NCBI GenBank assembly: GCA_004369045.1
Contig: ML213506.1
Span: forward strand, 1 to 64,000
Length of the DNA stretch: 64,000 bases
Direction: 5' to 3'
Origin: Heliocybe sulcata
Taxonomy: Eukaryota > Basidiomycota > Agaricomycetes > Gloeophyllales > Gloeophyllaceae
Shown here one piece after another: positions 7,899 to 13,129 of the stretch. Within the stretch, counting starts at the first letter, position 1. Every line of letters begins with the position of its first letter. Below the pieces are notes generated by a model. It worked only from the letters and a program-made list of their open reading frames with translations, was not told where the DNA came from and made no database searches. A program made the position numbers and the translations under genes.

Positions 7899-8852
7899 AT
7901 GGTCGCTATCTTCGAATCCCTGCCATTGGAACTTCTGCGGCTTATCTTTTCAATGTCCTGCACCGACGGTGGTAGAACTGTGTGTTGCATAAGAAGGGTC
8001 TCAAAGACATTCCGAGACGCATCCGAGGAGTACCGATTTCGCAGCGTCGCACTCGACAATATCAGCTCAAACCGTACAGTTGCGGCATTCATAGACTCTT
8101 TAAATGGTGCCCCCTTTCCTCGGGTATCCCATCTCTTTGTCCATTTTGTCCAGCCCGTGGAGCGACTTCTCAGTATGTTCTTCTCCTTCTTCCCGCTTTC
8201 CTGAAAGCGCTCATCTTGCCAATCTCTTCTAGTCGAGTCCCTTTTCGAAACTGTGTCCGAGTCTCTGGATACGCTCTACTGCATCGTCGGAGATGTGGTC
8301 CATAACCGATCGGAGCCCTGCTACGTCTCACAGGCGCTTTGGCGCACCCGTTTCCCTCGACTTACTCACCTCACATTTCGGTCCGGTCCGAGACACTCGA
8401 CCAACGGCAGCGAGCTTCCGGATCGCTACCCTTCCCTAAGAAGCCTGCACGTATCCCCTCCAACGCCCATCCACTTCATAATTGGCCATCTCATCACTCT
8501 CAACTTCTGCGTGGGGGCTTCATCCGCTCTTACAGAAGTGTGTCTCTTGGGCGCAAATTTTCGCGGAATGCGCCTCGCTAACCAGATCCCATCCCTGAAA
8601 GCCACTTGCAATTCCTTCCGCGACCAAGGGTTGTACATTTCGCTGACCTCGCCCGACCGCCTACTGCTCCCCCGCTCTGTGCAGAGATATGAATTTATAC
8701 CAGTGCCCGGATACGTCTCTGTTGGTGAATCTGTCACCAAGGATATGGAAGGCCTGGTTTGTTCTACGCTGCGAGCAGAGCCTTTGAGGACTGTCGAGGA
8801 ATGGAAGCAGGAGTGGCTGAAGATGCTCGATGCCCACTACGCGTATGTCTGA
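7899..8852 (+). CDS. F-box protein
   Basis: Two exons (7899-8172 and 8233-8852, intron 60 bp) splice in frame to a 297-residue protein. The N-terminus, LPLELLRLIFSM, is a typical F-box helix, the Skp1-binding module of SCF ubiquitin ligases. It is followed by CIRRVSKTFRDASEEYRFRSVALDN. The rest has the loose leucine-rich pattern (FPRLTHLTFRSG, YPSLRSLHVSP) seen in the many lineage-specific F-box proteins of basidiomycetes. The ATG at 7899 was preferred over an in-frame ATG at 7845 because the F-box motif begins directly after it. It is divergent from the UCH gene with only about 110 bp between start codons. A relic of a related gene lies at 37.3-37.5 kb. Substrate unknown. Confidence 0.75.
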
Positions 8853-9374
8853 GCGTCCAGTGCAAACGCCCGACACTTGAAGTATGTTCATGCGGCCAAG
8901 CGCGGATATCCTTGGATATTCAATGACGATATGCAGCTCGGAAGATACTCTGGGGTATGGACCGCGTAGTATACAATAAGTTACGTCTCGGAGAGAATTG
9001 AATCGCGCTCAGGGAGTGCGACGGCCGGTACTTAACGCTCAGCATACAACCAGTAGTATGGTTTCGGCTGGAATATTGTCATTACTGTACAGGCCGGTGC
9101 ATATGTAAGGAAATGAGGTTGCGTGAGAAGACCAGGATGTGGAAGGGCGGAGCGGGAGCAAGTATACTCTTTTCCGCATGGGCACTAGGGGACATCTCTT
9201 CATACATGCAAGACCTGCAAGATGGATGCACGACGACAGTTGGGCCAATCCCAAGTTACGGCGAGACGGCGAGACGCACCAGCAGCGATATCACAAAGAG
9301 CTTTTCGGCATCCTCCGAATCACTACTCGCTCCGTTCTTGGTCTTGATCTACTTTACCATGCATCTACTAACTC
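8853..9374. other. Intergenic; no gene seen
   Basis: About 520 bp between the F-box gene and the PAXX-like gene. Short frames only. It should contain the 3' end of the F-box transcript and the promoter of the next gene; no clear motif stands out. Confidence 0.4.
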
Positions 9375-10461
9375 ATGTCGGACTCGGAGAATAGCCTTCT
9401 CACACACCTCGCCGTGCTCGACGACCTCATCCAAGTAATCTACCAAGGCCACCTAAAGTTCGTCGTCCTGTCTGCTGTCGACGACGACGCTTGGAACGTG
9501 CACGTCGGGCTCACGAGCCGGACGAAGGAAGGGAGGTGGTGGACGGGACAGTGGAAGCAGGAAGATGTCGAGAAGATCATGGTACGCTTATATCGAGTTC
9601 TCTAACATTCATCATGATCAAACTCATTGTAGGGTCCGAGGAGCTCGTCCAGCTTGATGGAGACCTTCGTTCAGAAGCTGAAGACTGCGTTCACGGAGGG
9701 TGACATGTTCATCGGAAACTGGAACCCAAGTAAAGGGGCAGAGATCAACGCAAGTACCCTTCATTAACGACCTCGGATCGCGGTCATGATACGGTACTCT
9801 TAGTTGGCGATCGGGACGACAGACAAGAAGCCCCTCTCTATCTCTTTGACCGAACTCTCCTCTCAAGATGCCGCCGCATTCGCGTCTGATGTTCTCTTCC
9901 GTGTGAGTATCATGTAACAAACTACGATCGGTGTAACTTATGTCACTGCACTTGCACTAGATTGCTCTGCAGGCCCAGAAGCACGGTTGTCAGCTCCAGC
10001 CGAGCACGCTGCCAGCGCCTCCGGTGCTACCAGACATGCCGCGCCAACCGCGCAGTAGTACGCATATTGTCTGTTATACCTCGCTTTCTCTGACTAATGG
10101 GCGCCTCGCTCCGCTAGGAACTACGACAGTCAAAGATAGTTCATCCACTAGCACCTCCACCAGTAGCAAGTCCGCTCAAGACCCCGAGACATTGAAGGAA
10201 ATTGAAGAGCTCAGATCACAGCTCGCTGAAGCGCACGCAGAGACGACTAAGTCGCCCAAATCCAAGGCGCCGAGCAATCCTCTCCAGCTCAGAATGAGTG
10301 AGTCGTATCCACTACACTTCGCCTGATAGATGGTGGTTCTGAAGGGTATCATAGAAGCGAGAGGACTGGCTGCTGCGAGCCATGTGAAGGGCGCGTCGCT
10401 TGCTAATCCGAATAAGAGGGTCCGGAAGATCAAGGAGATTGAGTTTGAGGACGAGGATTAG
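9375..10461 (+). CDS. Candidate PAXX-like non-homologous end-joining factor
   Basis: Six exons (9375-9581, 9633-9749, 9804-9902, 9961-10057, 10118-10297, 10355-10461) join in frame to 268 residues. The second intron has a GC-AG donor, GCAAGT. The N-terminal half looks like an XRCC4/XLF/PAXX head domain: short strands (LKFVVLSAVDDDAWNVHVG, AINLAIGTTDKKPLSISL as spliced) and then a helical stretch, DAAAFASDVLFRIALQAQKH. A charged, Ser/Lys-rich tail follows. The tail reads ASLANP, then a basic run, then KIKEIEFEDED at the very C-terminus. From memory, human PAXX has SLINP, basic residues and VDFDET in the same order and spacing; that end binds Ku. If right, the product is nuclear and stabilises Ku at DNA breaks. 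Family assignment is inference from pattern; I have no alignment score. Confidence 0.6.
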
Positions 10462-11577: not shown

Positions 11578-13129
11578 ATGGACCGGACTTCTTTACTTAT
11601 CTTAGGGCATTGGATATTTCTGTCGGACTGCTTGATAGCAGTGTACTTATATAATATTGCGACGGTTCTGACACTTCCGATGACAGAGCAACAATGGCAC
11701 CAACTCGCCATTCCGGACCCCCGGATTCGTCACCCCGGGCTTTGCAACACCTGCTCCAGGCAGTCCCCAGCTGCGTGCCAAGTCGCCCTTCCTTACTCCG
11801 ACTGGCATCCCCTCTCTCGCGGTCCCCGCCTCGGTACACGTCCCTTCACCACTCAGCGACCACGTTCTCACCGCCTACCCCTTCGGGACCCGCGACATCC
11901 CCGGCTTCTACGTTGTCATCCCTGCTGGTGGCGCTGGCACGCGTCTCTGGCCGCTCTCTCGCGAAAACCATCCCAAGTTCCTCCTTGACCTCACCCTCAA
12001 GGGCCGCTCCCTCATCCAAGCAACATGGGATCGACTTATCCCGCTCTCCTCTCCTACACGCACGACCGTCGTCGCGGGTCCTTCCCACGTGACGAGCATC
12101 CGCGAGCAATTGCCAGAGCTTCTGGGCCACAACCTCTTCACCGAGCCCAGTGCGAAGGACTCCATGGCCGCGATCGGGCTGGCCGCGGCAGTTCTGGCCA
12201 GACGCGACCCTGACGCTGTGATCGGCTCGTTTGCGGCCGACCACATGATCTCAGGCGACGACGCGTTCCTCTCAGCCGTCGCGGAGGCTGTCGAGGTCGC
12301 GAGGAAGGACTACCTTGTCACGATCGGCATCGCGCCCTCGCACCCCTCTACCGGCTTCGGGTACATCCGTCTCGGCGAGAAGCTCGACGTCCTCGAGGCG
12401 CCGAACGCGCGGCTCGTGTCGAGCTTCAAGGAGAAGCCCGACGCGAGGACGGCCGCGGCGTACATTGCGACGGGTAATTACCGATGGAACGCGGGTATGT
12501 TCGTGACGAAGGCGACGTTCCTTATGCAGCTGCTGAAGGGGTACAAGCCCGAGCTGCATGATGGGCTGCAGAGGATTGCAGCGGCATGGCATGACGAGAC
12601 TCTCAGGCAGAAGGTGCTCGATGAGGTCTGGCCAGGGCTGGAGAAGATCCCGATCGACAATGCGGTGGCTGAGCCTGCTTCGATGGAGGGCAGGGTCGCG
12701 GTCGTCCCTGCTACTTTCGGTGAGCCTACGAATCAACCTGTGTCCGCTTAATGTCCACCCTCTCACCATGTCCTTCCTCCTTCCAGGTTGGGACGACGTC
12801 GGCGATTTCTCGTCCCTGGCCGACCTCCTCCCGGCAGAAGCGAGTCAGCCCCGCGTCCTGGGTGACAGCGGCCTCGGTGAGCTCCCTACTCGCTTCCCTC
12901 ACGATCGGAGGTCTGACAGTTTGTGTTCGATCCGTTAGTGCTGACAGAACAGGTCGCGGGCGGCATCGTCGTCCCCGGCTCCGGGCGCCTCGTTGCGTGC
13001 CTGGGCGTGGACGACCTCGTCATTGTCGATATGCCGGATACGCTGCTGGTCACGACGCGTGCGCGATCGCAGGAGGTGAAGCGGATGGTCAAGAAGTGCA
13101 AGGACGCGGGTTGGAAGCAGTTGCTGTAA
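11578..13129 (+). CDS. Mannose-1-phosphate guanylyltransferase (bacterial ManC-like type)
   Basis: Makes GDP-mannose from mannose-1-phosphate and GTP for glycosylation and cell-wall polymers. The nucleotidyltransferase signature FYVVIPAGGAGTRLWPLSRE continues NHPKFLLDL, and further family segments follow: IGSFAADHMI, TGFGYIRLG, FKEKPD, NYRWNAGMFV, IDNAVAEPA and WDDVGDF. The KFLL form and domain order match the bacterial-type enzyme rather than the classical eukaryotic GMPPB/Psa1. The last introns splice TFG to WDDVG and DSGL to EQVAGG; TAA is at 13127-13129. The N-terminus is uncertain. The enzyme frame has no in-frame ATG for about 220 bp upstream of the signature, so I used an ATG at 11578 with an intron 11641-11686 (46 bp). 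That gives a low-complexity leader before the catalytic domain. Confidence 0.8.

Follow-up and report, generated by a model that had tools for sequence, protein, structure and literature searches.

Does the gene at positions 9375 to 10461 of the window (the whole stretch of 64,000 nucleotides analysed here, part of a 31.6-Mb assembly of 51 contigs) encode a fungal PAXX, the Ku-binding factor of DNA end joining? The initial annotation had put this forward on the basis of a spliced 268-residue product with a head resembling the XRCC4 superfamily and a C-terminus resembling that of human PAXX. Our analysis suggests that, within the XRCC4 superfamily, the gene product probably belongs to the PAXX branch as a divergent member. 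The proposal gained from the rank of PAXX among the families matched by the head and from four mapped Ku-binding positions in the tail, but the profile score did not reach the curated cut-off, and of the mapped contact residues of Ku70, three out of four differ in an approximate alignment.

The 268-residue product was reproduced as an 807-nt open frame on the forward strand, spliced from six exons and ending in TAG (Table 1). Four of the five introns of this gene have GT-AG borders, while intron 2 alone is GC-AG, a detail absent from the initial annotation. We read it as GC-AG because retention of the frame requires it; by inspection, no GT donor was found that would preserve the NLAIGTT stretch in frame. 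Such an intron may be missed by automatic gene callers, which would break the protein. The introns of this gene are short (51-60 nt) and densely spaced, and in this the DNA looks fungal. The stop-to-stop frame opens at 9372 and its first ATG is at 9375. The chosen frame was supported by codon usage, for which it scored best when all six reading frames of the spliced transcript were compared (with training on one neighbouring ORF), by its GC3 of 0.69, and by the number of stops in frames 1 and 2 (8 and 15, respectively). A search of the same genome found no second copy of the gene: one match (C10, E 5e-4) spanned only the linker and the start of the tail and was tentatively ascribed to composition, and another (C23) had an E-value of 0.82.

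Table 1. Exons and introns of the candidate PAXX gene, in window coordinates, with the protein features assigned to each.
Feature	Coordinates	Strand	Content	Basis
Exon 1	9375..9581	+	Residues 1-69; N-terminal helix, then beta strands 1-3 and helix 1 of putative head	Open frame and splice sites; low-confidence model and sequence for strands and helix
Intron 1	9582..9632	+	51 nt, GT-AG	
Exon 2	9633..9749	+	Residues 70-108; helical region, second strand group begins	By inspection
Intron 2	9750..9803	+	54 nt, GC-AG, donor GCAAGT (AAC/GCAAGT...CTCTTAG)	
Exon 3	9804..9902	+	Residues 109-141; last strands of head, stalk helix begins	
Intron 3	9903..9960	+	58 nt, GT-AG	
Exon 4	9961..10057	+	Starts at residue 142; stalk helix ends, proline-rich linker follows	Helix by inspection
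Intron 4	10058..10117	+	60 nt, GT-AG	
Exon 5	10118..10297	+	Ser/Thr-rich linker, short helix-like stretch ETLKEIEELRSQLAEAHAE	Helix by inspection
Intron 5	10298..10354	+	57 nt, GT-AG	
Exon 6	10355..10461	+	Up to residue 268 and TAG; SLANP (248-252), basic run (254-260), IEFEDED (262-268); putative Ku-binding motif	

Upstream in the window lies an F-box-type gene (7902-8852), in which 7902-8204 matched the Pfam F-box family above the cut-off (E 2.8e-4) and the frame that follows, 8205-8852, matched no Pfam family at E up to 0.1. Downstream is a nucleotidyl-transferase gene (11684-12751; PF00483, E 5.6e-33), the product of which, given its GGxGTRLWPLSR motif, is probably a sugar-phosphate guanylyl- or uridylyl-transferase. 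Neither neighbour says anything about end joining.

A profile search, which the initial annotation had proposed as a check, was run against Pfam (24,736 families) with seven constructs carrying the real head, namely six unaltered stretches and one from which the linker was deleted. PAXX (PF15384) was the top-ranked family for four of the six unaltered constructs (residues 1-154, E 0.016; 15-165, E 0.010; 1-173, E 0.013; 25-154, E 0.013), and in these the head came nearer to PAXX than to any other family, XLF and XRCC4 included. The alignment obtained with construct 1-154 was co-linear, pairing residues 41-147 with positions 28-125 of the 194 in the profile, and extended, as judged by eye, from strand 2 to the stalk helix inclusive. 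The proposed XRCC4-superfamily-like head was supported in this way, with PAXX as the top family, but below threshold: the unaltered head segments reached 15.3-15.9 bits against a curated Pfam cut-off of 25, the full-length protein had no PAXX match up to an E-value of 10 and was led by STAS_2 and DUF1999 (E 0.14-0.15), and construct 1-141, which lacks part of the stalk helix, did not match PAXX in Pfam either.

Controls indicated what this signal responds to. None of ten randomised heads (nine shuffles and one reversal) matched PAXX, nor did any of four shuffled heads carrying the real tail, and human XLF and XRCC4, both whole and as heads, did not match PAXX up to an E-value of 10, in a setting where HMMER filters discard most matches above E of approximately 0.1. 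In these tests, the head match was specific to PAXX, though sub-threshold. Human XLF and XRCC4 matched each other's Pfam families at E 0.0037-0.016, so the PAXX signal of the fungal head is of the same size as that between accepted members of the superfamily. The linker-deleted construct matched PAXX at E 0.0009 (19.3 bits, also below the cut-off of 25), which we considered as reinforcement between head and tail; this reading was dropped, given that the real head joined to shuffled tails scored alike in five of five cases (E 0.00076-0.014; 15.5-19.6 bits). Because shuffled tails did equally well, no measurable part of the profile score comes from the tail.

Other comparisons of the head gave less. 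Its pairwise alignment with human PAXX was at chance level (Z -0.34), and those of human XLF or XRCC4 with PAXX were near chance too. Low overall identity is normal in the PAXX family, given that human and sea anemone XLS/c9orf142 were reported in 2015 to share about 20% identity, with a surprisingly conserved C-terminal region (PMC4423191). PDB searches with full-length, head-only and tail-only queries returned no chain of the XRCC4 superfamily, and the hits that did appear, on antibody chains and an RNA helicase with E-values no better than 0.44, were taken as chance. A single-sequence fold of a read-through containing two introns had a mean pLDDT of 40 and was unusable, with an order of helices and strands compatible with an XRCC4-type head. 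By inspection only, the putative stalk consists of one helix of about 25 residues followed by the proline-rich linker, and a single helix running into prolines fits a short stalk like that of PAXX, unlike the long one of XRCC4.

The C-terminus of the fungal protein reads KGASLANPNKRVRKIKEIEFEDED, and that of human PAXX GESLINPGFKSKKPAGGVDFDET; the human sequence used for comparison differed from PDB 7zwa at one residue (147), and chain J of PDB 8asc covers human residues 177-204. The layout attributed to this tail, that is, SLANP, a basic run and IEFEDED arranged as in human PAXX, was confirmed, with an unchanged order and nearly equal spacing, since the stretch from the S of SLxNP to the F spans, inclusively, 17 positions in the fungal protein and 18 in the human one. 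Human S184, N187, V199 and F201 correspond to S248, N251, I262 and F264, of which three are identical and one is a change from V199 to I262. That the human tail is the Ku-binding motif agrees with a report that human PAXX peptides with S184A, N187E or V199A+F201A lose their interaction with Ku and that the motif contacts two patches on Ku70 (PMC10413649).

Against the human PAXX tail, the local alignment score of the fungal tail was reached by 23 of 3000 shuffles and the global score by 31 of 3000. The pattern SLxNP followed by [VIL][DE]F[DE] at the C-terminus has an expected frequency of 5.5e-8 per protein end, a value that assumes independent letters and applies to a pattern drawn after the match had been seen. 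Tail-only queries had no Pfam match in any of three versions; the human PAXX tail, queried by itself, scored 55 bits against PF15384. With no profile score contributed by the tail, the case for it is one of motif evidence, and it is independent of the case for the head, given that the head constructs contain no tail. We conclude that the two-part Ku70-binding motif is present as a sequence motif and that the protein is a candidate for Ku binding. If the alignment is continued without gaps from SLxNP, R257 falls at the position of human K193, where a K193R change reportedly renders binding to Ku constitutive (PMC12357295); we regard this as a curiosity rather than as evidence.

Three other explanations were weighed against a divergent PAXX. 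The gene could encode a fungal orthologue of XLF (Nej1/Xlf1) that acts via XRCC4 and Ku80 rather than Ku70, its tail having converged on that of PAXX. XLF likewise combines a head with a short stalk and a Ku-binding motif at its C-terminus (PMC13041557), the Pfam XLF model found nothing else in this genome, albeit in a search without a working control, and plant PAXX is described as interacting with both XRCC4 and Ku in plants that are said to lack XLF (PMC12707071). We nevertheless consider an XLF unlikely, given that no construct matched PF09302 at E up to 10, with human XLF scoring 73.8 bits as a control, and that the tail is not XLF-like, as in alignments with the human XLF tail its local score was reached by 817 of 3000 shuffles and its global score by 215 of 3000. 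A divergent XRCC4 of the Lif1 type, binding DNA ligase IV, would account for the match of construct 25-154 to the XRCC4 head model (PF06632, E 0.14) and for the finding of no other XRCC4 in the genome, where the head model was searched without a working control and the coiled-coil model was also empty. However, PAXX outranked XRCC4 in that construct, no other construct matched the XRCC4 head model, and none matched the coiled-coil model, with human XRCC4 controls at 92.2 bits (head) and 142.8 bits (coiled coil). By inspection, the stalk helix is broken by prolines soon after residue 152, leaving no space for a long coil that binds ligase IV, and with a tail that resembles PAXX, this makes an XRCC4 very unlikely.

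The protein could also be unrelated to all three families, a lineage-specific fungal product in which a PAXX-like head and tail arose by chance. This would be in keeping with profile scores that were all sub-threshold, with the lack of pairwise similarity in the head and of a match at full length, and with the closeness of STAS_2 and DUF1999, the E-values of which were only about 5- to 17-fold worse than that of PAXX in constructs 1-154 and 15-165 and which were ahead in the full-length protein and in 1-141. Chance would, however, have to produce two independent parts that indicate one and the same family, while shuffled or reversed heads produced a PAXX match in 0 of 14 cases. Moreover, by the definition of E, values of 0.010-0.016 over 24,736 families amount to approximately 5e-7 for a single family named beforehand. 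We therefore regard coincidence as quite unlikely, and retain a divergent PAXX as the preferred reading.

The same genome holds two Ku loci. One, on C12 (686500-694500, minus strand), is the best match of human Ku70 and also matches Ku_N; the other, on C19, is taken as Ku80 by elimination. In tblastn pieces compared with human Ku70, the contact residues H163, R165, F471 and R517 correspond to T, R, V and A in the fungus, the piece with F471 being a weak HSP (E 26). In this approximate reading, made without a Ku70 control from a PAXX-free species, one of the four mapped contacts is kept (R165). Such changes may either count against a contact like the human one or reflect co-adaptation. For the ATP-dependent ligases, ten matches at five loci were obtained and three of these were compared with PDB: two were ligase 1-like, and the third, at exons C8:439380-440203, had human DNA ligase 4 as its best PDB match by a narrow margin (E 5.3e-7 versus 7.9e-7 for ligase 1), so that ligase IV at this locus is a likely but tentative reading. 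The PAXX, XLF, XRCC4, DNA-PKcs (CC3) and ligase IV models had no match in this genome, and given that the control genomes were silent too, these searches are uninformative on absence; the XRCC4 coiled-coil model matched, among the controls, Bacillus subtilis alone, below the cut-off. Pattern matches to possible relatives numbered 56 in viral contigs and 144 in prokaryote genomes, and none was confirmed.

If the protein is a PAXX, it would have an N-terminal beta-sandwich head (about residues 25-128) and a short helix (about 128-152) through which it may dimerise, followed by a long disordered Ser/Thr/Pro-rich linker that would carry the two-part Ku-binding motif at the C-terminus. At the first patch, S248 and N251 would sit between the vWA domain of Ku70 and the Ku core; at the second, I262 and F264 would dock on helices of Ku70. 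A dimer with two such tails could then tether two DNA ends, each bound by Ku, while they are joined. For human PAXX, a recent review describes how the tail inserts beneath the vWA domain of Ku70 and how Ku-bound ends are bridged (PMC13041557).

The distribution ascribed to PAXX has changed over time. In 2015, it was described in vertebrates, while yeast and most invertebrates were said to lack it, and co-evolution with DNA-PKcs was considered possible (PMC4339890); a 2022 review repeats this picture (PMC8926060), and a 2026 review instead places PAXX from yeast to humans (PMC13041557). In plants, PAXX is described as having an XLF-like function, and plants are said there to lack DNA-PKcs (PMC12707071), while another review lists plants among the groups that have DNA-PKcs and reports its absence from Dikarya (PMC8549938). 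The initial annotation was right in its premise that animals are where PAXX is best known, but a plant PAXX was reportedly published in 2023 by Khan and Ochi in Plant J. Among the open-licence PMC papers listed, none named a fungal PAXX in its title or in the beginning of its abstract, none combined "PAXX" with "basidiomycot", and passages from a few papers on PAXX and fungi did not mention one; an earlier mention elsewhere is possible. A dikaryal PAXX would thus add a member to a known family that is already known in plants.

If the assignment is true, PAXX is of greater age and occurs more widely than its image as an animal factor implies. Given the reported absence of DNA-PKcs from Dikarya (PMC8549938), a dikaryal PAXX would argue against coupling between PAXX and DNA-PKcs, and the fungus would offer a tractable system for the role of PAXX without DNA-PKcs. 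The finding would also have practical importance, given that the removal of end-joining factors is routinely used to make gene targeting in fungi efficient. Going further, one could picture PAXX as an ancient factor kept in Dikarya after the loss of DNA-PKcs, here, if the fungus is a basidiomycete as the initial annotation held, perhaps serving as the main or only tether of the XLF type, Ku70 and the tail having co-adapted so that their contacts depart from the human ones, much as plant PAXX seems to merge the roles of PAXX and XLF; we consider this scenario possible but doubtful.

Among known systems, XRCC4/Lif1 (PF06632) would have the superfamily head in common with the fungal protein, as reflected in a single weak match, but differs in its long coiled stalk, which by inspection the fungal protein does not have. 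XLF, Nej1 and Xlf1 (PF09302) follow the same superfamily plan with a C-terminal Ku-binding tail (PMC13041557), but gave no profile match, and the tail of XLF is of a different type, with Ku80 as its target. Plant PAXX, which is known here by description rather than by sequence, is also a PAXX homologue outside animals, from a lineage that is said to lack both DNA-PKcs and XLF, and is reported to bind XRCC4 besides Ku (PMC12707071). Compared with human PAXX (C9orf142; PF15384; PDB 3wtd, 4wja and 7zwa), the fungal protein is longer (268 versus 204 residues), with a longer Ser/Thr/Pro-rich linker, a head without pairwise similarity and with a Pfam score under the cut-off, and a putative Ku70 partner in which, by approximate alignment, three of the four mapped contacts are changed. 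It resembles human PAXX in having this family as the best Pfam match of its head in four constructs, in its putative short stalk (by inspection), and in a tail in which S-L-x-N-P, a basic run and a hydrophobic-acidic-F-acidic element follow one another in the same order and at almost the same spacing.
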